In this document: piece by piece, positions 158-18,930 of the stretch
How the letters are laid out: each line of letters begins with the position of its first letter
Numbering within the stretch: the first letter of the stretch is position 1
Source of the DNA: an uncultured Lachnospiraceae bacterium
GTDB lineage: Bacteria > Bacillota > Clostridia > Lachnospirales > Lachnospiraceae
Direction of reading: 5' to 3'
NCBI GenBank assembly: GCA_947588675.1
Contig: CANPYY010000024.1
Coordinates: forward strand, 1-33,044
Length of the DNA: 33,044 nt
Program-made: the position numbers and the translations under genes
The notes under the pieces: model-generated
The model's database searches: none
What the model saw: the letters and a program-made list of their open reading frames with translations, nothing else
What the model was told of the DNA's origin: nothing

Positions 158-1204
158 TTATTCGTTCTTGAATGAATATTTTTGCACTTGCGCAATTGTA
201 TCGGAATTTATTGCAGCTATTGCAGCATATTGTGCAGCTAAAACCGTATTTTTTTCTATCTCTATTGCATGTTGAAGTATTGATTCATTTTGTTTTACCA
301 ATTTTTGATTATACGCATTAGTCTTAGCAATTTCTATGATAGTATCCTGTTGCTGATTAATTACTGTATCTAATTTACTGCTTATTTCATCCAAATCACA
401 ATGATACAAAGCTTCCTTTAATGTAGCCATAGATGTGGATATGTATTCATATAAAAAATAAATTGCATATATATTTCTATATTTAAAAGGAATGATATTA
501 ATACTATATGCCTTATCAAGTAACCGTTCCGTATTCTCTAACTCCGTTTTTTTAATTGCAAGATTATCGGTACATATCTTCTTTTTTTGAAGTTCTGATT
601 TTAATCGTTTTTCATCATTACTGACATTTCTTTTATATTTTATCTGTATTGAAATCATAGAATAAACAAAGGCAATAGCGCACAGAACCGTGGCTATTAC
701 AAGCAGTGATTCTGTATATATAGATTTGGATAATGTATCACCTACCGAGTCGATCAAATTGTATATTGCATCAAATACTGAATCATTTTCGCGATAAGCA
801 TATAATTCCTGACGTTCAACAAATTCCCTCATTTCAGGCTCCATGTTTATTCTATTCACTCTTTCTTGATGAATCATCAAAGTTATTATCAAAAGCCATA
901 TAAACAAAATCAAGGGCACAAAAAAAGAGGCACGCACCCAATTTTTCTCAATCTTTTTCTGTATTCCCAAAGAATTTATTGTATTTTTTAAATGATTTAT
1001 TTCAGTATTTAATTTGTTTTTGGCAAACTCCAACGTTCTGATATTACCCAAATAATTTATCATAACATCTTTGTTAAACGTATTGTTTATACCGATATTT
1101 GTTTCCATATTTTTAATACTTATATAATAAGAATTTTCAGCACCACAATTATGGCAAAATTTTTGATCATCTTGTATTTCAGCTCCACATTTCGTACAGT
1201 TCAT
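158..1204 (-). CDS. Zinc-ribbon membrane protein with coiled coils
   Basis: This is a 348-residue protein of unknown function. Residues 3-20 hold two CxxC knuckles (C3, C6, C17, C20), the pattern of a short N-terminal zinc ribbon. Two hydrophobic membrane segments follow at about 93-111 and 163-185, separated by an acidic stretch of roughly 50 residues. Long charged, probably coiled-coil segments lie before the first membrane segment (about 55-90), after the second (about 190-235) and near the C-terminus. The likely topology puts both ends in the cytoplasm with a short external loop. No catalytic motif was recognised. The ATG has only a weak GGGG ribosome binding site. It has its own orientation-matched neighbours but about 70 bases separate it from the next gene upstream, so operon membership is unclear. 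Confidence 0.8.
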   Translation of the reverse strand: MNCTKCGAEIQDDQKFCHNCGAENSYYISIKNMETNIGINNTFNKDVMINYLGNIRTLEFAKNKLNTEINHLKNTINSLGIQKKIEKNWVRASFFVPLILFIWLLIITLMIHQERVNRINMEPEMREFVERQELYAYRENDSVFDAIYNLIDSVGDTLSKSIYTESLLVIATVLCAIAFVYSMISIQIKYKRNVSNDEKRLKSELQKKKICTDNLAIKKTELENTERLLDKAYSINIIPFKYRNIYAIYFLYEYISTSMATLKEALYHCDLDEISSKLDTVINQQQDTIIEIAKTNAYNQKLVKQNESILQHAIEIEKNTVLAAQYAAIAAINSDTIAQVQKYSFKNE

Positions 1205-9579: not shown

Positions 9580-10761
9580 TTACTTTATTCTCGTTTTTGC
9601 TTTCTTTGACCATTTTCCATATGCAGTCTGATTACCCTCTTTTTTATATGCCCTTACCTGAAAATAATATTTTTTTCTGTGTTTCAATTTTTTGATTATC
9701 TTACTGGTTTTTCCCTTAACCTTTACGGTCTTAACAGATTTTTTCATACTCTTATTTGTAGAATAACGTATCTGATAACCGTTTGAATTACTTATTGAAT
9801 ACCATGAAAGATTACATTTACCCTTGCCAACAGAACAATATACGGTTTCTACTTGTCCCAATTGCAGCTTATCCTTATAATTGTCCATATAAGAATGACC
9901 GCACAGTTCACATTTATGTATCTGATATCCTTTGCTTGTGTATGTTGCATCTACATATTGGGTTTTATAGTCATGGCTGCAATTAGATTGATTTAACGCA
10001 GATACATTAAAAATATATCTTCCAGGATCACCTGCAACTTTTATATAATAAGTTCCTGCTTCAAGGACTACATTTTCATTTGATGTTTTAGGTGCCGTCA
10101 CTGTACCGCCATACATATACTTATAATATTTTCTTTCTGATAGATCGTTATTATATATAGATATGTCTGTATCATCTTTATATATTTGTATATTTACAGA
10201 GTAATAACCGGTGTTTGAAACAACCATACAATACCAATCTTCGCTATCTGTTACCGTTATTGCGCCTGTTATTTGATTGCTTAAAGAATATGATTGTGGA
10301 GAATCATAAGATATTGCACTGATATCATTTGTTCCATAACTTGTAAACGATGCATTTATTTTATATTTGCCATTATACCCATATACTTTCATATAATATG
10401 TACCTGATGATAATGCATAATTACTTACTGTAGTTTTAGGTTGAGTTTCATTTCCTCCATATGTATATATATGATATAATCTTTCCGACAAATCTTCTGT
10501 ATATAAGTCGTATGATAATTCATCAATATACGACATCATTCTGAACTCTACTTCACCGTCAGACGGAATTACAAGCCTGTACCAATGATCCCCGCTCTCT
10601 TCCGTAATCCATTTGTCCTCACTCCACGCTCCTGTAAACGCCATGTCAGATGCAGAAGTATAATCTGCTGCAGATGCTGTTTTTAAATTCATACCAAACA
10701 CTGTTGATACAGTTATTGCCATAGCCATTATCATAATAATAAATCTTTTAATTTTGTTCAT
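9580..10761 (-). CDS. Secreted PPC-domain / FnIII protein
   Basis: The product is 393 residues. A signal peptide ends near ASA (about residue 31). Two duplicated PPC-type (pre-peptidase C-terminal) beta-sandwich domains follow at about 40-142 and 155-256; both contain DLSER...YGG and SGTYY(M/I)KV motifs, showing a recent internal duplication. Residues 261-293 hold a Cys/His module (CSHDY...KCELCGHSY) like the Cys repeats of the 1028-residue protein, and about 305-393 is a fibronectin type III-like domain ending in a very basic tail. The ATG at 10761 is preferred because the only upstream in-frame start, a TTG, lies in the ribosome binding site. It is 54 bases downstream of the cohesin/LRR gene, so it is likely to be co-transcribed. 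Confidence 0.85.
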   Translation of the reverse strand: MNKIKRFIIMIMAMAITVSTVFGMNLKTASAADYTSASDMAFTGAWSEDKWITEESGDHWYRLVIPSDGEVEFRMMSYIDELSYDLYTEDLSERLYHIYTYGGNETQPKTTVSNYALSSGTYYMKVYGYNGKYKINASFTSYGTNDISAISYDSPQSYSLSNQITGAITVTDSEDWYCMVVSNTGYYSVNIQIYKDDTDISIYNNDLSERKYYKYMYGGTVTAPKTSNENVVLEAGTYYIKVAGDPGRYIFNVSALNQSNCSHDYKTQYVDATYTSKGYQIHKCELCGHSYMDNYKDKLQLGQVETVYCSVGKGKCNLSWYSISNSNGYQIRYSTNKSMKKSVKTVKVKGKTSKIIKKLKHRKKYYFQVRAYKKEGNQTAYGKWSKKAKTRIK

Positions 10762-10815
10762 TGTCTTCCTCTCCAATTAACCTTACTGTATTTGCAATCA
10801 TAATTTTTATACATA

Positions 10816-11952
10816 CTATTTAATCTGCTTTATCTTAAAAATCTTCTTATATCTTTTAACTTTTCTTTTTGGTCCTTTTATTACTGCTTTTTTATTGATT
10901 TTATTAAATGCTGCATTCCCTACTTTTTTTAACACAAGAGTCTTTATAGTGATTTTCTTTAACCCTAAACATTTAAAAAATGCTTTTTTCCCAATAGATA
11001 TTACATTTTTTCCAATAATCACAGTTTTAATTTTCTTACTTCCTGAAAAAGCATTAGCTGTAATAGATGTAACTTTATACTTATCACCGGCAAATGTTAT
11101 TGCTACAGGTACTATAACTTTCTTAATATTTCCATTCGCTCCCAGTACTTCTGCCGTCTTTTGTGTCATATCAGTAATTCTGTAATAAATATTGCCAATC
11201 AATATTTTATTATTTTCATCCAACGATTGCATAGGTTCGCTATCTTTAATTGGCGCATAAGATACCGCAGGTTTAGAATTAAAATAATCTCCAGTTTGCT
11301 GTACTGTATTTTGGGGTTGCTCTGTGACGGATGGAATATCTGTTGGCATTTCCACAGGTTTATTTGTCGGAATATTTATCGGTTTATCTGTTGGAATTGC
11401 CGTTGGTTCTTCTGTTGATTTTGCCGTTGGTTCTGCCGTCGGAGCCTTTGTTGGTTGCTGTGCTTCTATAACATCTACATAGCCTTCCTCAACTTCAAAA
11501 TATACACTTTCACCTTTCATATTAAATACATCATCCGTATCATATGAAATATTAATAGGATATCTACCCGGCTCAGCATTAGGATTTATCTCAAAGGTAA
11601 ACAATGCTATTATTCCATCATCACCAACATCTACCTGTGAATTAAATCCTGATATTGAATACGGCGAATTATAATTCTGTGAAGTTCCTGTATTAAAATC
11701 CTTTGCAGTTTCTTTAAATTCCACATTAGTAAGTTCAAAAATAACCATATCGTATTCAAGTACCATTCTAAATGCTGTTATTCCCGGATTATTTTTTATC
11801 TGTACAGGTATCTGCACACTGCCTCCTGCACATTTTTTCATATTGCCAACTATGATTTGCGGCGTTCCTGCGGCATATGCATTTATATCTAAAACAAATA
11901 AATTACACATTACCATTGCTACAGCAATAACTACTGCCAATATTCTTTTCAA
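10816..11952 (-). CDS. Secreted cohesin-domain protein with BspA-like LRR
   Basis: This 378-residue exported protein has a signal peptide at about 1-27, a cohesin domain at about 31-161 (NNPGITAFRMVLEYD, NSPYSI, DDGIIALFTF, VEEGYVDV), a Pro/Thr/Glu linker of PT-x-x-PT repeats at about 166-210, and a C-terminal BspA-type leucine-rich repeat region at about 250-350 (ITANAFSG, VIIGKNVISIGKKAFFKC) followed by a basic tail. The cohesin is clearly homologous to that of the neighbouring 1028-residue protein. Cohesins bind dockerins, and that neighbour has a dockerin. The TTG start is supported by a strong GGGGGAG ribosome binding site; the gene starts 18 bases after the upstream stop, so both share a transcript. 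BspA-like repeats often mediate adhesion; no anchor motif is visible. Confidence 0.88.
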   Translation of the reverse strand: MKRILAVVIAVAMVMCNLFVLDINAYAAGTPQIIVGNMKKCAGGSVQIPVQIKNNPGITAFRMVLEYDMVIFELTNVEFKETAKDFNTGTSQNYNSPYSISGFNSQVDVGDDGIIALFTFEINPNAEPGRYPINISYDTDDVFNMKGESVYFEVEEGYVDVIEAQQPTKAPTAEPTAKSTEEPTAIPTDKPINIPTNKPVEMPTDIPSVTEQPQNTVQQTGDYFNSKPAVSYAPIKDSEPMQSLDENNKILIGNIYYRITDMTQKTAEVLGANGNIKKVIVPVAITFAGDKYKVTSITANAFSGSKKIKTVIIGKNVISIGKKAFFKCLGLKKITIKTLVLKKVGNAAFNKINKKAVIKGPKRKVKRYKKIFKIKQIK

Positions 11953-11970
11953 AACATCTCCCCCTTACAA

Positions 11971-14900
11971 TTATTTATTAATATATTGCTGCAATGCAAC
12001 GATATCACGCATATTTAACTTTTGATCCTTATTAAAATCTGCTGCCTGCTTGCTGTATTTTACATCCCATCCATTTATTACCTGCTGCAAAAGTACGACA
12101 TCTCGCATATTGATACTTCCGTCGGAATTAACATCACCAGCTTCAGCTGCATCAACACATATAAACCCTTCTTCTACATCTACTTCAATCCTATCTCCTG
12201 AGATATTGAATATATCATCCGGGTCATATTCAATGCCAATCATATATTCGCCGTCTTCTGCATTCTCATTCACTTTAAACTTGAGCGTTGCAATTATCCC
12301 GTTATCGTTAAAGTCTTTTTCGGCAGAATACATTGAAAATGAATATGGCGAACCATATTTTTCAGAAGATGCCCGATTCATCGAGGATAATGCTTCTCCA
12401 AATGCGAAATCCGTCATTGTAAGCGCTTCCGTGTCATAATCCAGCACAAACCTCATTGAAGTAATCCCCGGATTATTCTCAAGTTTTACAGATACCGTTA
12501 CTTCTTCTCCCGCTTTAGTATGTACTGCTTCCATTGAAATCCTTGGTGAGCTTTCATCATATACCGGAATGTATTCTGATTCCCTTGTTTCCTCATATTC
12601 ACAGTTAATGCACTTCCTGCTTTCTGTCCCGTTCTCCTTCACTGTTGCTTCTTTTACCGTCTTCCACTCATCAAATACATGTTCAAGTTTCGGCAGTACT
12701 TCTTTATTAGCATGGGTATCGCACTCAGAACAGATATCTTCCCTTACTCCTTCATTGCTGCATGTTGCTTCTTTAGTTACCACTGAAACAAAACTATGCT
12801 CTTTTACAGGTATCTCCGTTTTATCTGTCTCATCATTACATAGCGTACAGCGTTTTACCTTTATCCCGCTTTCAGTACAGGTTGCTTCCTTTATAATCAT
12901 CTCTGCATAATTATGTCCGGTCGCAGGTATTATCTTTGCATCCTTTGTTTCACTGCAAGTCTTACAGTGAATAGATTGACTTCCATCTTCAGTACACGTT
13001 GCTTCTCTGTCAACTGTATATTCTAAATTCCATTCATGTACATGTACGGGTGGAACATATACTTCTTTCCATACCGCATATAATGTTACTGCTTTTTCCT
13101 CCTTATATGCTGTTCCCGGCTGATAGGAAACTGTCTTTGCTGCTTTATCTGTGCTCCAGCCAAGGAACTCATATCCTTCTCTTACCGGTTTATCGCTACT
13201 CAATGTAAGATTTTTCCCATATGTCTTCGTCTGTGCGGCAGGTGCTTTTGTTCCCCCGTTTGCATCATATTTTACTGAATATGTAACCGGTGTCCATATC
13301 GCATAAAGCGTCATGGCACAATTTCCCTTCTCAATCGCAGAATTTATCTTTGTAGGAATAAGCTTGCTGTCATTCTGATCAAATATCGTGCCTCCGCTTG
13401 CTTTCGTCCCCCATCCTGCAAACTTATACCCTGTTCTTGCAAGTCCAAAAGTTGACGCATTACACAACCCGTTTGTTTTAGCATCGTTATATGTCCACGT
13501 CTGGACTTTTTTCTTATTATCCGACTTCTGATAAACTATGCTGTTGTTTAATTTATATGTATCCGAAACTAAACTTCCTCCATTCGCGTTAAATGTAACA
13601 TCAAGTTTATTTGGGTTCCATACGGCATAGAACGTATATGTATCATTCGTCTTACTGCCTTCAAGCCATGACTTATTGAACTTGCCGCTGAATGAATTTT
13701 TATATAATGATTTACTATACTTTTTACTTTTTATTACCGAATCCGTATTCCATCCATTACTTCCCGCATACCAAGTCTTGTCTGAATTTCTGTATACGTT
13801 CCAGCCTCCAAAAGTATATCCTTTTTTTGTATATTTATTTGCCGCAAGAGTAATAGTGCCATTATATTGTGCCGAACCATTTGACATTGAACCGCTTCCG
13901 CCGTTCGAGTTATATTTTATCGTATCCTTTAATGCAGATATCGGTATCCATGCAACCTTGTATCCTGCATTTCCTACCAATGGATACAAAGCCTGGACTG
14001 CTTTAGATGTATGTCCGATTATCTGGAATTTGTCACCCGAACCCACATATCCGTCTGTTTTTGAATTACTTTTCAAGTCACTTCTTGCATATGATTTTAT
14101 CTGTTTACCCGCTTTCATATTAAAAACATCATATGATTGATCAAAGAACACTGACGTCTTTACATATCCAGAGTCCGTACCCCCTGTTTTATCAAGCGGA
14201 AATGTAACTTTACACCAGCCATTTTTATATATAGTATTTATAGTGCAAAGGTCTGTATCATAGATTTTATTTGCCTTAGCGTTTCCGCTTATAGCGTTAT
14301 ACACTGTTGTTTTACCCGTATTAAGCGTATACGCTTTCATAGGTGTTGAATATCTTTTATCTTTTTCTGCGCATTGACTACATGAAGCAACAACTCTGGT
14401 CTTACCAGTGTATTTTGTAGCTCCACAAGAACATTTTTTATACTCCTTATGCGGATGTGCTGCTTCATATTCGGTTTTAGTATATGAATGTGTATGCGGT
14501 TCCTGACCACCATACTTTGGAACTCCAAAATAATAATCACTTATTTTTCTTTTCAATGAAAAAACCCCTTGATTCCCTCCATTGGGATTATTTGTATTCC
14601 CCTCTATTGAATAAAAATAATTTCCACTAACAGACGATACTAATCCCACATGACTCCAACTATCCGTAAAAAACAAATCCCCTGATTTTGGTATATAACC
14701 CTTGCTACCATATTCCATCGGAATATTAAAACAATCTTTTTCATGTCCGGCACGTGCAGAAGTTTTCAGTATGCTTTCCGGAATACCTGCCTGTCTGGCA
14801 CACCAACTTACAAAGTAAGCACACCATTTCTGATTATTATTTCCAAAATATTTTCCATATTTGTTATTATCTTTAGAACCTTCTGTATAACCTATTTGTG

Positions 14901-15057
14901 TTTTGGCAACACCGATAATATCTTTTCGATAGTTACCGGTATTTTTATAAGTATTTTCATATGCCGCCTTCACCTTAACTTCCGATATCGGCACAATAGA
15001 AATCATCATTACAGTTATTAATACCATTGATAAAAACTTTTTTAATCTATTCTTCAT
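11971..15057 (-). CDS. Secreted CHAP / InlB-repeat / cohesin / dockerin protein
   Basis: The 1028-residue modular protein reads: signal peptide 1-32; CHAP amidase/peptidase about 41-183, with probable catalytic C79 (KWCAYF), H136 (SHVGLV) and E152; a Cys pair module about 189-230; two SH3-like modules about 236-376; three InlB-type repeats about 379-480, 484-588 and 591-663; four Cys-rich repeats about 673-830 (REATC.., KEATC.., KEATC.., KEATV..); cohesin about 837-967; and dockerin 973-1028, with two calcium loops starting at D975 and D1007. CHAP domains cut peptidoglycan cross-links or amide bonds. A cohesin and a dockerin on one chain allow oligomers or binding to the cohesin of the next gene. 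The ATG has a GGAGGAGG site. It faces a divergent XRE regulator across a palindrome-bearing promoter. Confidence 0.92.
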   Translation of the reverse strand: MKNRLKKFLSMVLITVMMISIVPISEVKVKAAYENTYKNTGNYRKDIIGVAKTQIGYTEGSKDNNKYGKYFGNNNQKWCAYFVSWCARQAGIPESILKTSARAGHEKDCFNIPMEYGSKGYIPKSGDLFFTDSWSHVGLVSSVSGNYFYSIEGNTNNPNGGNQGVFSLKRKISDYYFGVPKYGGQEPHTHSYTKTEYEAAHPHKEYKKCSCGATKYTGKTRVVASCSQCAEKDKRYSTPMKAYTLNTGKTTVYNAISGNAKANKIYDTDLCTINTIYKNGWCKVTFPLDKTGGTDSGYVKTSVFFDQSYDVFNMKAGKQIKSYARSDLKSNSKTDGYVGSGDKFQIIGHTSKAVQALYPLVGNAGYKVAWIPISALKDTIKYNSNGGSGSMSNGSAQYNGTITLAANKYTKKGYTFGGWNVYRNSDKTWYAGSNGWNTDSVIKSKKYSKSLYKNSFSGKFNKSWLEGSKTNDTYTFYAVWNPNKLDVTFNANGGSLVSDTYKLNNSIVYQKSDNKKKVQTWTYNDAKTNGLCNASTFGLARTGYKFAGWGTKASGGTIFDQNDSKLIPTKINSAIEKGNCAMTLYAIWTPVTYSVKYDANGGTKAPAAQTKTYGKNLTLSSDKPVREGYEFLGWSTDKAAKTVSYQPGTAYKEEKAVTLYAVWKEVYVPPVHVHEWNLEYTVDREATCTEDGSQSIHCKTCSETKDAKIIPATGHNYAEMIIKEATCTESGIKVKRCTLCNDETDKTEIPVKEHSFVSVVTKEATCSNEGVREDICSECDTHANKEVLPKLEHVFDEWKTVKEATVKENGTESRKCINCEYEETRESEYIPVYDESSPRISMEAVHTKAGEEVTVSVKLENNPGITSMRFVLDYDTEALTMTDFAFGEALSSMNRASSEKYGSPYSFSMYSAEKDFNDNGIIATLKFKVNENAEDGEYMIGIEYDPDDIFNISGDRIEVDVEEGFICVDAAEAGDVNSDGSINMRDVVLLQQVINGWDVKYSKQAADFNKDQKLNMRDIVALQQYINK

Positions 15058-15087
15058 AATTTCCTCCTCCTATCCAAATAATATTTA

Positions 15088-15116
15088 ATTATATACTTAA
15101 TAAGTTTATTATGCAA
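15088..15116 (-). promoter_or_regulatory. Promoter of the CHAP/cohesin/dockerin operon
   Basis: On the minus strand a TTGCAT -35 box (15111-15116) and a perfect TATAAT -10 box (15088-15093) are separated by 17 bases, about 30 bases before the ATG at 15057. One of two mirror-image palindromes sits inside this spacer, which is the classic position for a repressor. Confidence 0.6.
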
Positions 15117-15128
15117 CACTTATTAAGT
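15095..15128. promoter_or_regulatory. Paired palindromic operator candidates
   Basis: ACTTAATAAGT at 15095-15105 and its exact reverse complement ACTTATTAAGT at 15118-15128 are spaced centre to centre by 23 bases, so two sites about two helical turns apart lie on the same DNA face. The first is inside the CHAP-operon promoter spacer; the second is just upstream of that -35 box and about 30 bases before a weak TACAAT -10-like box (15154-15159) of the XRE gene. The likely binder is the XRE protein encoded at 15184. Confidence 0.6.
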
Positions 15129-15183
15129 TTTATTTTTCTTATTTATTTACTGATACAATCAAGTACATAAGGAGGAAAAAACC

Positions 15184-15507
15184 TTGAAGAATTTAAAAGA
15201 ACTTAGAAAACAGCATGGTTTAAGCCAGCAGAAACTTGCTGATATTCTTCATGTAAGCCAGCAGTCAATTTATAAATACGAACATGATATAACTTCACCG
15301 GACCTCGAAACCCTATCTTTAATGGCAAAATACTTTGATACATCTGTTGATTATATAATTGGAATTACAGATGTTTCACACAGAATAGAAAACATTGTTG
15401 ATACAATGTTAAATGAAGATGAACTGAATATTATTACTAAATACCGCAGACTTGATAATTATCAAAAAGATATAATACACATGGTAGCAGACAGCTACCT
15501 AAGATAA
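15184..15507 (+). CDS. XRE-family transcriptional regulator
   Basis: The product is a 107-residue DNA-binding protein. An XRE/Cro-type helix-turn-helix occupies residues 1-60 (LRKQHGLSQQKLADILHVSQQSIYKYE), followed by a short C-terminal helical region of about 45 residues with no sensor domain visible. The start is TTG with an AAGGAGG site 8 bases upstream. It is divergent from the large CHAP/cohesin/dockerin gene; two palindromic operator-like sites lie between them, so it likely represses that operon and perhaps itself. The gene ends in a hairpin terminator. Small XRE regulators of this kind also occur with prophages and toxin systems, but no such genes are near. Confidence 0.88.
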   Translation: MKNLKELRKQHGLSQQKLADILHVSQQSIYKYEHDITSPDLETLSLMAKYFDTSVDYIIGITDVSHRIENIVDTMLNEDELNIITKYRRLDNYQKDIIHMVADSYLR

Positions 15508-15551
15508 AAGACAACTCGAAATGCTCCCACTTCAAGCTGTCTTTTTTATTT
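15506..15551 (+). terminator. Rho-independent, probably bidirectional terminator
   Basis: The outer stem pairs AAAAGACA (15506-15513) with TGTCTTTT (15538-15545), with an inner stem CTCGAA/TTCAAG (one mismatch) around a short loop. A T-rich run follows on the plus strand and an A/T run precedes on the other side. It sits between the convergent XRE and CvpA genes and can end both transcripts. Confidence 0.8.
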
Positions 15552-15581
15552 TAATCATGCTGTTATTTTACTAAAACAAAT

Positions 15582-16103
15582 CTATACGTTAATCATATTA
15601 AATACCCTCTGCCATTGCTCCAGAAGCTGCATAAGCGGATTATATGCATTTATTTTGGTCAAAAGCGTGCTCTTTTCAAATAAACTGTATATTTCATTGC
15701 TCCACGGCATACCTATAAAGTATCCCGCTATAAAAAATATAAGCCATACTACGATAACTCCTCTTATCATGCCTGCTGCAAGACCAATGATACTGTTTAT
15801 CTGTTTTGCAATCGGAATTTTATTTATCAGATTCAAAAGTCTTGTTATTGAACCCAGTATTCCTACGACAATTCCATATATGATAACAAACGCCGCCGGT
15901 ATAACATAACGGAATCCTCTTGGGAGGCTTCCCATAACTGCGGCGCATACAACTGCCGCAAGCAAAGAACCTATTATCATCTTTACAATTGAATATGCAG
16001 TCATTATAAAGCCTGTTCTGAAACCATCTACTATAAAAGCAATCAATACAATAACCGTAATCACTTCAAGTATATTAATACTTATACCTTTTATTTCTAT
16101 CAT
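15582..16103 (-). CDS. CvpA-family membrane protein
   Basis: This 173-residue integral membrane protein has four hydrophobic segments (about residues 10-30, 34-58, 66-90 and 105-130) and a short amphipathic tail. The arrangement, with the DGFRTGF loop after the first helix and the IVVWLIFFIAGYF segment, matches the CvpA (colicin V production) family, whose cellular role is in envelope integrity rather than colicin itself in most bacteria. The start at 16103 is preferred: the ATG 18 bases upstream lies in the ribosome binding site, which itself overlaps the end of the upstream DUF5711-like gene. The two genes are thus translationally linked. Confidence 0.82.
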   Translation of the reverse strand: MIEIKGISINILEVITVIVLIAFIVDGFRTGFIMTAYSIVKMIIGSLLAAVVCAAVMGSLPRGFRYVIPAAFVIIYGIVVGILGSITRLLNLINKIPIAKQINSIIGLAAGMIRGVIVVWLIFFIAGYFIGMPWSNEIYSLFEKSTLLTKINAYNPLMQLLEQWQRVFNMINV

Positions 16104-16110
16104 ATGTGCA

Positions 16111-17295
16111 TTACCCCTCATTCAATTTAACGTATGATATTTTCGTATCATCTATTACATAATATGAATTTTTGCCTCTGCCCTTTATAAAATACTGCAC
16201 CTGTGAATCAAATGTACAGTTGAGCTTTTCGCTTCCATTTGCACGTAATATCCTGCATCCGGTATCTGAGGTAAATATTACTTCACCGTCAACCATTTTA
16301 GCATCATTATAACTGTAATCAATCTCTTTATCAAGTATTTTATCCCCGGACCTGTTGTACAATACTATCTGCCGTGACATCTCCTCACCGTTCCCTGCGA
16401 ACAAAAATCCCACATGGCTGTTATCAAATAATGAACCAATAATTTCCTTATCAAATACCTGTGTGGTGGATTCTGCGGGCTGTTTCATATTGGAAAACAG
16501 GGAAAATCCGTTATCCAGAAATACGCATACATCGTCGTCGCCTATAAATTCAGCTCCTACGGCAAGCGAATCGCTGTATGTCTTCCCGCCGACTATTCTG
16601 TTCTTATCCTGTCCTACTTCTGAAAAATTATAGAAACATACATTGCTTACGGGGTCTCCTCCCGATACGGCAAGATATACTGTTACAAGACTTTTTGCAT
16701 CCGGTGAAAATGCAATATCCACCGGATATCCGTCTTCTGATACATTGCTTGGCACTTCCACCAGAAGCTTATCAGAAGAAGAATACGGGTCATATAGTGA
16801 AATTACATCTGATTTTGAATCCTCGAGAACTACTGCTACTACTCCCTGCGACGCTACCCTGAGCATACTGACCGGCAGCGGAGTTTCTATAACGGTTCCC
16901 TCATCCGAGCCATTATATATGTATACTTCTTTTCCTCCCTGCTCCGCTATTGCAACATATTGTCCGCACGTATCTACCATAGGCGTGCTCATTTCATAGC
17001 TTCCATTCCACAGCACTTCGCCTTCACTATTTACGGCAGACGCTCCATCCCTGCTGTATTTCAGAAGGTTTCCTCCGTAATATTCATATTGCACGCTGTT
17101 GCTGTCCGTTCTTTCAAACGACGCCGTTTCCGTATATCCCGTATAAGTTTTCGTCCTTATCCCGTTCCATACAAGGAAAAAAATAAATCCAACCGCGGCA
17201 GCCGCCAGCACTATGCCTATTACAAATAATATACGTTTTCTTACTTTTTGTCTTTCCAGGCGGTATTCATTACTCCTGTCATTAAGTGTTTCCAA
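16111..17295 (-). CDS. Membrane-anchored beta-propeller protein (DUF5711-like)
   Basis: The product is 394 residues: a short basic cytoplasmic segment, one membrane helix at about 20-43, then a large external domain with WD/PQQ-like repeats (for example SAVNSEGEVLWNGSY, VVAVVLEDSKSDVISLYD, DIAFSPDAKSLVTVYL). This matches the DUF5711 proteins that I recall from Lachnospiraceae. The gene starts with TTG behind a GGGGAGG site and ends overlapping the CvpA ribosome binding site. The LysM-protein gene lies 93 bases upstream on the same strand. The set suggests a role at the cell envelope; the ligand is unknown. Confidence 0.82.
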   Translation of the reverse strand: METLNDRSNEYRLERQKVRKRILFVIGIVLAAAAVGFIFFLVWNGIRTKTYTGYTETASFERTDSNSVQYEYYGGNLLKYSRDGASAVNSEGEVLWNGSYEMSTPMVDTCGQYVAIAEQGGKEVYIYNGSDEGTVIETPLPVSMLRVASQGVVAVVLEDSKSDVISLYDPYSSSDKLLVEVPSNVSEDGYPVDIAFSPDAKSLVTVYLAVSGGDPVSNVCFYNFSEVGQDKNRIVGGKTYSDSLAVGAEFIGDDDVCVFLDNGFSLFSNMKQPAESTTQVFDKEIIGSLFDNSHVGFLFAGNGEEMSRQIVLYNRSGDKILDKEIDYSYNDAKMVDGEVIFTSDTGCRILRANGSEKLNCTFDSQVQYFIKGRGKNSYYVIDDTKISYVKLNEG

Positions 17296-17340
17296 AATAT
17301 TTCCTCCCCGGTATACTTACCTTTCTGTATATTGTATCAT

Positions 17341-17374
17341 ATTTTACAAACAATATATACATCTTTTGTAAAAT
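17341..17374. repeat. Inverted repeat before the DUF5711-like gene
   Basis: ATTTTACAAA (17341-17350) and its reverse complement TTTGTAAAAT (17365-17374) flank a 14-base AT-rich loop between the LysM gene and the DUF5711-like gene. A TACAAT -10-like box with an upstream TG lies just downstream on the minus strand, so this may be an operator or a weak hairpin between genes. There is no U-tract to support termination. Confidence 0.4.
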
Positions 17375-17388
17375 TGTCCCATTCACCA

Positions 17389-18687
17389 TTATTTTTCAGG
17401 AATCCACAGCTTCTGTCCTTCATATATCATATCTTCATTTTCAAGATTATTTAACTCTTTTATTTTTTTCACATATTTTACGGAGCGGAATATTTTTTCT
17501 GATATGCTTCCCAGATTATCACCGCTCTTTACAATATAAAAGCTATACTTTGACGCTGTATTGTCAGACATAACCGGCTGTTCCCCCGGAGAATCATTTC
17601 CTTCTTCCTGCACGGGAGTTGCTTCATGAAGCTCACCCGCATCTTTATTTTCTGTCTGCGTTTTATCTTCGGACTGTTCTTCGGCTGCCTGTTCAGCCGG
17701 CGGCTGCGCAGTTGTTTCCGTCTGCACATCAGATATACCGGCGTCCGCCACCTGTCCTTCCGGCATCTGCGCATCTGTTCCCTGGTTTTCTCCTCCGGCA
17801 GCAGACGGTGCTTCAGTCTGTATAGCGGACGGAGTTTCCGTAACCTGTATGTTCTCATTATCTGCTGTCTGCTGCCCGTCCTGTACGAGCAGATTATCAG
17901 ACGAGGTTTCTTCAATATTCTGCGGTATATCCGTCGCCGTATCGTTTGACGCCGTCTGCGATATATTATTATTCCTGTATATCACGCTTGTACCTACAAG
18001 CAGTATAACTGCGGCTACAAGCATACCGGCTGCATATACCGTTTGCATGAATTTTCTCTTTTCACTTTTTTCCTGACGTTTGCTTAATATATTTCTTATA
18101 TCTTTTACTACGCGGTCTTCGCTTTCCGCAGTTTCTTCTTCTTTTCCATTTGCCGCAAGCATATAGTTGTGCATTGTATCATTTTTCTGATAATATATAT
18201 AAAATCCCTTGCGTTTTATAAATGTGTTATTTATAAAATCAAAAAACAGTTCTTCCTTTTCTTCACAGTCATATACCATAAATATATAATTTTTACCCGA
18301 AAAATTACTGCTGTGTATATTAAGCAGCCGCTTATCAGGCTGCGCGTCATTAATACATCCGATATACATCCAGCCCACAATTTCTTCATCTTCATAAAAT
18401 TCCTTGATTTTATCGTATATTCCCGACCACATATCATTTGAAAACACAGTTTCTTTCATTTCTGCAAATTCATCAATAAGTACCATTCCATTTATGTACG
18501 TTTCTACTTCCTTGCCCGCGTTTTTTTTATGACCAAGAAGCACTGCTGCCGCACAGCTCATATTATTTTCATCCGTCAGCGAATTACCTATTCCCTTGGT
18601 AAACGTAATGACATAGTCCTCTACATATATTTTATGCGCTTTATCAATATTTCCTACCTGGCGGACATTTTTAGGTGTTTCATTCAT
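17389..18687 (-). CDS. LysM protein with cytoplasmic MPN-like domain
   Basis: The product is 432 residues. An N-terminal domain at about 17-177 has the layout of an MPN/JAB fold (AAAVLLGHKK, EIVGWMYIGC, LNIHSSNF, YIFMVYD), but the HxH zinc ligands are absent. Then come a basic helix, one membrane segment at about 213-237, a long Gln/Glu/Thr/Pro linker at about 242-379 and a LysM domain at about 382-430 that should bind peptidoglycan. The protein would therefore sit in the membrane, with LysM outside and the MPN-like part inside. The start at 18687 is chosen because an AGGAGG site sits about 10 bases upstream; a second ATG two codons earlier is too close to it. It is the first gene of the LysM/DUF5711/CvpA set. 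Confidence 0.8.
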   Translation of the reverse strand: MNETPKNVRQVGNIDKAHKIYVEDYVITFTKGIGNSLTDENNMSCAAAVLLGHKKNAGKEVETYINGMVLIDEFAEMKETVFSNDMWSGIYDKIKEFYEDEEIVGWMYIGCINDAQPDKRLLNIHSSNFSGKNYIFMVYDCEEKEELFFDFINNTFIKRKGFYIYYQKNDTMHNYMLAANGKEEETAESEDRVVKDIRNILSKRQEKSEKRKFMQTVYAAGMLVAAVILLVGTSVIYRNNNISQTASNDTATDIPQNIEETSSDNLLVQDGQQTADNENIQVTETPSAIQTEAPSAAGGENQGTDAQMPEGQVADAGISDVQTETTAQPPAEQAAEEQSEDKTQTENKDAGELHEATPVQEEGNDSPGEQPVMSDNTASKYSFYIVKSGDNLGSISEKIFRSVKYVKKIKELNNLENEDMIYEGQKLWIPEK

Positions 18688-18744
18688 ACACATTCCCCTC
18701 CTGATGCCTTTAAAAACACCATAACACCCACTTTGTACTTTGTC

Positions 18745-18773
18745 ATTATATTTCGGTTGCCATAGTTTTTCAC
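18745..18773 (-). promoter_or_regulatory. Predicted promoter of the LysM gene set
   Basis: On the minus strand a GTGAAA -35-like box (18768-18773), a 17-base spacer and a perfect TATAAT -10 box (18745-18750) lie about 55 bases upstream of the LysM gene start at 18687. Confidence 0.5.
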
Positions 18774-18930
18774 TATTTTGCAATATGGGACAATTGCATT
18801 CATTATATACCCGCATTATTGTCGCATCATAGGTATATTCAGGCAATTATGCGATATATTTTTTTCACGCTGCGGAGTAAATATTTCCACACATGAGAAT
18901 ACTTGTTAAAAAATAATAAGGAGATTTTAT

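Follow-up and report, generated by a model that had tools for sequence, protein, structure and literature searches.

Background

Clostridium perfringens has cohesin-bearing glycoside hydrolases, a precedent for a non-cellulosomal cohesin on a secreted enzyme. Here we describe a two-gene locus with that likeness from an uncultured Lachnospiraceae bacterium (GenBank assembly GCA_947588675.1, contig CANPYY010000024.1, positions 1 to 33,044); this whole stretch of 33,044 nucleotides is referred to as the window. The product of the first gene, A, combines a CHAP domain with InlB-type repeats, a cohesin and a dockerin, and the product of the next gene, B, carries a second cohesin. We consider it somewhat more likely than not that the two proteins make up a small peptidoglycan-hydrolase system which is docked at the cell surface and does not belong to a cellulosome, a reading that rests on sequence comparison.

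Excerpts of the papers cited here by PMC number describe several related systems. In Ruminococcus flavefaciens, RflaF_05439 joins two NlpC/P60 modules to an X-dockerin and is said to bind the surface cohesin ScaE, a result given there as unpublished (PMC3573020). Like A, it places a dockerin on a cysteine-peptidase-type head of a wall-hydrolase superfamily. It differs in belonging to a genome with a large cellulosome, in using an X-dockerin and in having no cohesin on the enzyme, for which the excerpt reports no protease activity detected (PMC3573020), whereas the genome of the window has no cellulosome. Adaptor scaffoldins of the ScaC type resemble A in carrying one cohesin and one dockerin per chain and have been proposed to switch or extend the complex, but they sit among many dockerin proteins (PMC4081043, PMC11557425), whereas the adaptor part of A is fused to a CHAP domain and Pfam counts a single dockerin in the genome. 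A review mentions lysozyme activity in the cellulosome of R. champanellensis and suggests a 'lyticome' (PMC6403190); the dockerin-borne wall hydrolases are common to both cases, but in R. champanellensis they belong to a cellulosome, while here a two-gene system with a swapped catalytic head lies outside any cellulosome. The mucinolysome of Limousia likewise directs a cohesin-dockerin complex at something other than plant fiber, yet it comprises mucin-degrading enzymes and several scaffoldins (PMC12997984). Lachnoclostridium sp. MSJ-17 has single-cohesin proteins in a presumably non-cellulolytic genome, two of them with C-terminal membrane helices as in the wider pair described below; there, however, up to 39 dockerin proteins could bind, and the passage concerned states no wall-hydrolase role (PMC11557425).

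Among the matches listed in a literature search, which was mostly without subscription papers, there was no report of a wall hydrolase and a partner dedicated to each other through cohesin and dockerin without a cellulosome around them. Dockerin-bearing wall hydrolases within cellulosomes and cohesin-dockerin adaptors are known; the dedicated pair outside a cellulosome appears to be new. If the proposal is true, the cohesin-dockerin interaction reaches beyond plant fiber, starch and mucin to bacterial walls in cellulosome-free bacteria.

Domain composition of the two proteins

The original prediction placed a cohesin, a dockerin, a CHAP domain and InlB repeats on one protein of 1028 residues, and Pfam domains together with the cohesin fold bear this out; the hidden Markov model check that it proposed gives profile support to cohesin and dockerin alike. 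The CHAP domain matches positions 3-81 of 81 of the CHAP profile (PF05257, E 9e-9) and has all of the putative residues Cys79, His136 and Glu152/Asn154, which we take to be catalytic. The cohesin combines a match to the cohesin profile with the fold of type I, and the solved cohesins 2vo8, 2jh2 and 2w1n, which we take to come from the C. perfringens enzymes, turned up in the structure comparison. The dockerin, of type I, covers the full length of PF00404 (1-57 of 57), with the ligands D,N,D,N,D in both of its duplicated calcium loops. At positions 10, 11, 17 and 18 the two repeats have the same residues, and with such symmetry dual binding would be plausible. Having one dockerin and one cohesin per chain, A is built as a monovalent adaptor scaffoldin (as defined in the excerpt of PMC11557425).

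The next gene had been predicted to encode a paralogous cohesin with leucine-rich repeats, and B does carry a cohesin, 42% identical to that of A, and an LRR_5 tail. The BspA-like adhesion role attached to those repeats fares less well. Residues 290-378 of B (89 residues) include 26 Lys and 2 Arg but, on the acidic side, a single Asp and no Glu, amounting to a net charge of +27 and an isoelectric point of 10.9. LRR_5 matches occur at 41 places in the genome of the window. In 14 stretches covering part of these places, where tails were judged by eye and by charge, 8 have a protein with a cationic end of net +24 to +34 over its last 90 residues (six LRR_5-type and two fn3-type by eye), the remaining six lying below +24. 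Because this strongly cationic tail is of a kind common to other proteins of the genome, the adhesion reading is weakened: the LRR_5 end of B resembles a tail for retention at the surface more than it does a specific adhesin, and tails of this type may be a common means of retention, perhaps via acidic wall polymers. Known surface-attachment signals (SLH, LPXTG, LysM, a C-terminal transmembrane segment) were sought in B, with no such Pfam domain and no LPXTG-like end found; its only hydrophobic segment is N-terminal, so that the signal of an anchoring scaffoldin is absent.

The genome of the window comprises 2.37 Mb in 92 contigs and is 95.22% complete. Across it Pfam reports two cohesins and one dockerin, all at this locus, and a search for other dockerin proteins, as the original prediction had advised, thus returns that of A alone. 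As that prediction held, this is not an ordinary cellulosome, which is excluded by a count of just one dockerin and two cohesins, each of them single, in the Pfam search; the multi-cohesin scaffoldin and several dockerin-bearing glycoside hydrolases that define a cellulosome were not found in this 95.22% complete genome. So small a set of cohesins, with a lone Pfam dockerin, makes partner choice directly testable.

Exchange of the head and conservation of the docking part

The strongest evidence for a wall role is comparative, and comes from a head swap in one genome of the same genus (G304) and from relatives in another (G299). The nucleotide alignment of the syntenic G304 locus with the window has two blocks, positions 10790-14496 (82.9%) and positions 15013-17593 (76.2%), and the sequence separating them is unmatched. 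Gene A of G304 encodes a Peptidase_M23 domain (E 5e-25) where the window has CHAP. Past the head the two A proteins are 86.7% identical over 840 residues, including cohesin and dockerin, and the partner gene is kept. The cohesin of A, its dockerin and the cohesin of B are under purifying selection (Nei-Gojobori omega 0.118, 0.082 and 0.121, respectively); the corresponding values are 0.108 for A 188-832, 0.34 for the linker of B, 0.30 for its leucine-rich repeat tail and 0.084 for DUF5711 as a control. From these comparisons the predicted catalytic head is exchangeable and the docking part conserved, and the replacement of CHAP by M23 on a kept docking tail amounts to a natural designer-enzyme exchange.

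Two other explanations were rejected. Loss of the catalytic head in G304 is excluded, the head having been replaced (M23 for CHAP), and chance domain calls are excluded by recurrence in relatives, by purifying selection and by the fold. We also note that, relative to locus L074, synonymous divergence (dS) at window positions 11473-12549 is 0.31-0.46 for the cohesin-dockerin-cohesin block, lower than for A 188-832 (0.72) and for DUF5711 (1.59); a recent exchange of the docking block is possible.

Residues 232-381 of A form a module of 150 residues. A search of 61 genomes, among them that of the window, gave four matches to it, spread over 3 genomes, all of this genus. Its carriers are A of the window, A of G304 (83%) and the products of two adjacent G299 genes (32 and 35%), all with cohesin and/or dockerin, and the architectures built on it are CHAP-cohesin-dockerin, M23-cohesin-dockerin, Phage_lysozyme-dockerin-Peptidase_M14 and Big_3-cohesin. 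A Pfam wall-enzyme head is present in three of the four proteins; the N-terminal head of the Big_3-cohesin protein has no Pfam match. Heads predicted to be wall enzymes of different families therefore ride on related modules with cohesin or dockerin. The G299 genes lie at L076:4462-10253, the one with Phage_lysozyme, dockerin and Peptidase_M14 followed directly by the one with Big_3 and cohesin, and a multi-enzyme wall-lytic complex is possible for this pair. An AlphaFold 2 model of A 232-381, built from 4 sequences, reached a predicted local distance difference test score (pLDDT) of 79.1. Foldseek returned no match for it at E 0.001 or better, and we accordingly name the module no more than SH3-like; the best matches (E 0.008) are NlpC proteins, which by our understanding carry tandem bacterial SH3 domains, and the modeled fold is weakly suggestive of a tandem SH3.

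Relatives of the cohesin-dockerin tail were found at 34 loci in a scan of genome contigs, mostly from metagenome-assembled genomes of Clostridia and Oscillospiraceae, many of ruminant-gut origin. By our own count, 21 of the 34 loci encode one protein with both cohesin and dockerin plus another cohesin protein. Pfam was applied to 25 dockerin proteins of this kind, of which 24 represent as many of the 34 loci and the last is from L048, and gave dockerin 25, cohesin 18, LRR_5 13 and List_Bact_rpt 13, followed by one match each to Phage_lysozyme2, M23, CHAP, Amidase_6, NLPC_P60, C39, GH16, Lectin_C and MACPF; these are matches per domain and may come from fewer distinct proteins.

A glucosaminidase and membrane-cohesin pair in the family

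Among 299 genomes of the family, dockerin occurs in 115 and cohesin in 114 (E 0.001 or better). Both are present in 80, dockerin only in 35, cohesin only in 34 and neither in 150, corresponding to an odds ratio of 10 (p 6e-19, kinship ignored). We fetched 81 loci, chosen non-randomly: L043-L062 have the hits side by side, L094-L113 come from genomes without a dockerin match, L114-L128 from genomes without a cohesin match, and the rest are mixed. In 7 of 15 supposedly cohesin-less genomes a custom profile recovers a cohesin gene (L114-L117, L119, L120, L127). The 81 loci yield 71 cohesin-only genes, and the gene upstream encodes a glucosaminidase with dockerin in 34 cases and a glucosaminidase without dockerin in 11; the other upstream neighbors have dockerin only (6), cohesin and dockerin (2), cohesin (1) or something else (12), and five genes have none. 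A simple hydropathy scan finds a membrane segment later in the chain in 45 of 45 glucosaminidase-linked cohesin proteins.

The common pair comprises a secreted SagB-like glucosaminidase with a C-terminal dockerin and, encoded directly after it, a cohesin protein that has both a cytoplasmic tail and a membrane segment (L043-L045, L047, L049-L052, L054-L056, L059-L062, L079-L084, L090-L092, L114-L117, L119, L120, L127, L129-L131). The NCBIfam SagB model matches 14 of 20 of the glucosaminidases at E 0.01 or better (best 4e-17), matches that are given by E value and not by the curated cut-off, and Pfam Glucosaminidase matches 1 of the same 20. The top solved match of the glucosaminidase profile is 6u0o_B (E 2e-21), which we take to be the staphylococcal SagB-SpdC complex, and one Glu, presumably catalytic, is invariant in all 20 proteins. 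At E 1e-30 the profile finds the enzyme in 154 of the 299 genomes; dockerin is present in 82 of these, cohesin in 78 and neither in 53. Glucosaminidase and dockerin share contig and reading-frame length in at least 34 places. The dockerin of the glucosaminidase is clearly dispensable in some lineages.

Two kinds of protein end deserve mention. The cytoplasmic tails of the membrane cohesins often end in an acidic stretch such as DDDFEFIDLD (L047, L050, L060, L062, L081, L096, L098, L112, L113, L119 and others), a stretch with the look of a short motif that binds an intracellular partner. Some glucosaminidases without dockerin (L096, L105, L112, L113) end in a short hydrophobic strand (SNVTIVPN, PSIIIIG, SNVIIISP, SNVTVIN), which gives the impression that a different way of docking has taken the dockerin's place.

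The genome of the window itself holds a third, divergent cohesin beside a SagB-like glucosaminidase. It was detected by the custom profile (E 4e-20) on a protein of 429 residues at about 19.3-20.6 kb of contig C1, with a C-terminal membrane segment recognized by sight; Pfam does not report it at E 0.001, and it lacks the NNPGI signature that both other cohesins have. The neighboring glucosaminidase is present in 10 of 10 genus genomes and, in the three checked with the custom profile, has no dockerin.

SagB has a membrane anchor or an SpdC-type partner. We put forward tentatively, and with slightly more doubt than confidence, that in Lachnospiraceae the cohesin-dockerin interaction is largely a tether for peptidoglycan hydrolases and not for plant-polysaccharide enzymes. 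It would take two forms: the accessory, head-swapping surface lytic complex of the window, and the common pair of SagB-type glucosaminidase-dockerin and membrane-spanning cohesin, in which plug and socket would do the work of SagB's anchor or partner and possibly couple wall cutting to the cell interior. If true, this second form offers a testable answer to how autolysins are placed at the membrane in gut Firmicutes.

Proposed mechanism and alternatives

In the mechanism that we propose, A and B would be co-transcribed and secreted. B would be held at the cell surface through its lysine-rich LRR_5 tail and serve as a single-cohesin anchoring scaffoldin. Into its cohesin the dockerin of A would plug with calcium, parking the CHAP head at the wall to cut peptidoglycan locally. 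The cohesin of A would provide a second socket onto which further A molecules could add. A could thus be described as an adaptor scaffoldin with one cohesin to which an enzyme has been joined. The original prediction had allowed a two-protein surface complex with either a wall or an adhesion role; the wall role fits the operon, the CHAP-to-M23 swap and the relative with lysozyme and carboxypeptidase domains, while the adhesion role has lost ground. We lean slightly towards surface-held lysis or turnover of peptidoglycan over core growth, since the cassette appears to be accessory within the genus and comes with a putative regulator of its own; the cell's own wall and that of others are both possible targets.

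Several points weigh against this proposal. Wall enzymes are a recurring cargo of the cohesin-dockerin class, but other domains are carried too. Compared on its own with solved structures, the CHAP head gave nothing significant, the best match being an engineered protein at E 0.013. The M23 head of G304 has an Asp aligned to a His of one enzyme; we assume this His to be a zinc ligand, and the activity of the M23 head is accordingly uncertain and may be altered. Anchoring of B would depend on its cationic tail. The genome is incomplete and in 92 contigs, so that it may lack a dockerin or cohesin gene which the organism has, and A's own cohesin and the third, membrane cohesin are also candidate partners for the dockerin. 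Across the family, the enzyme has no dockerin beside 11 of the 45 glucosaminidase-linked cohesin genes, the cohesin there persisting alone. Docking onto B, and not onto A or the third cohesin, is the weakest step of the mechanism.

The best-surviving alternative, though unlikely, is that A self-assembles, the dockerin of one molecule sitting in the cohesin of the next to give head-to-tail CHAP chains that end on B as a filament anchor. A does carry both halves, its cohesin and that of B are similar enough that they could take the same dockerin, the dockerin is symmetric at the four positions named above, and Pfam finds only one in the genome; however, adaptors such as R. flavefaciens ScaC are said to link different partners (excerpts of PMC4081043 and PMC3573020), and the linker of just a few residues between cohesin and dockerin in A would make binding within one chain unlikely.

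Decidedly improbable is a role mainly as adhesin or matrix builder, based on the InlB-type repeats and LRR_5, in which CHAP would be secondary, for example for wall passage or anchoring. The 13 LRR_5 and 13 List_Bact_rpt matches among the 25 related proteins speak for it, but the G304 head was swapped for another peptidoglycan-hydrolase-type domain and not lost, and the SH3-like module is confined to cohesin or dockerin proteins, mostly (3 of 4) with a Pfam wall-enzyme head. Docking of A onto the third cohesin, with B as competitor or surface store, is the least probable: that protein has a membrane segment and a dockerin-free neighbor, leaving its cohesin without a neighboring dockerin, but it is missed by Pfam and lacks NNPGI, and the genes for A and B adjoin and occur together, whereas the glucosaminidase occurs in all ten genus genomes.

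Features of the locus and its surroundings

Table 1. Coordinates of the A-B locus and its control region in the window
Feature	Position	Strand	Basis or remark
Gene A, 1028 aa	11971..15057	minus	signal-like hydrophobic N-terminus, CHAP, tandem SH3-like, InlB-type repeats, cohesin, C-terminal dockerin
CHAP of A (73-154)	14596..14841	minus	Pfam profile
Tandem SH3-like module of A (232-381)	13915..14364	minus	genome comparison and predicted fold
Best List_Bact_rpt (InlB-type) repeat of A (593-662)	13072..13281	minus	Pfam
Type I cohesin of A (841-942), NNPGI signature	12232..12537	minus	Pfam and fold
Dockerin of A (973-1027), two near-symmetric calcium loops	11977..12141	minus	Pfam and loop alignment
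Gene B, 378 aa: cohesin joined by a Pro/Thr linker to a lysine-rich LRR_5 tail	10816..11952	minus	open reading frame and Pfam
Cohesin of B	11545..11859	minus	Pfam
Pro/Thr linker of B (166-201)	11350..11457	minus	domain scan
LRR_5 lysine-rich C-terminal tail of B	10837..11076	minus	Pfam and charge
Helix-turn-helix (Xre-type) gene, putative regulator	15184..15507	plus	HTH_3 E 2e-18; divergent from A; 81% identical in G304
Palindrome pair ACTTAWTAAGT, 12 nt apart	15095..15128	.	putative operator in divergent promoter region

The stop of A and the start of B are 18 bp apart, with a purine-rich stretch resembling a ribosome site inside, and A is preceded by a strong stretch of this kind. Both palindrome copies (15095-15105 and 15118-15128) are exact. 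The number of sites is unremarkable (when one mismatch is tolerated, the expectation for the window is 1.15 sites, and two or more turned up in 32 of 100 shuffles). The paired pattern occurs at one place in the genome of the window, namely here, and its reversed control at none; G304 retains two copies at equal spacing beside a TATAAT. As the copies are exact and paired, the pair is unique in the genome and it is kept in G304, we regard it as a putative operator.

The DUF5711 neighbor gene is present in 9 of 10 genus genomes. The A-B pair was found at this site in the genome of the window and in G304; beside DUF5711 it was not seen in seven other genus stretches, some of which end within a few genes, and G306 has no DUF5711 match. 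Within the genus, a full-length-like match to A occurs in G304 only, the others being partial. On these two grounds the cassette is taken as accessory in the genus.

Just downstream of B, window positions 9580-10776 encode a third protein of 398 residues with weak PPC-like stretches and a lysine-rich fn3-like end, both below Pfam cut-offs. In G304 the neighbor of B is instead a relative of window 158-1204, and about 9.5 kb differ here. On the other side, a LysM protein (17389-18846) adjoins DUF5711; of the 8 other genus stretches that were read, 7 likewise have a relative next to DUF5711.

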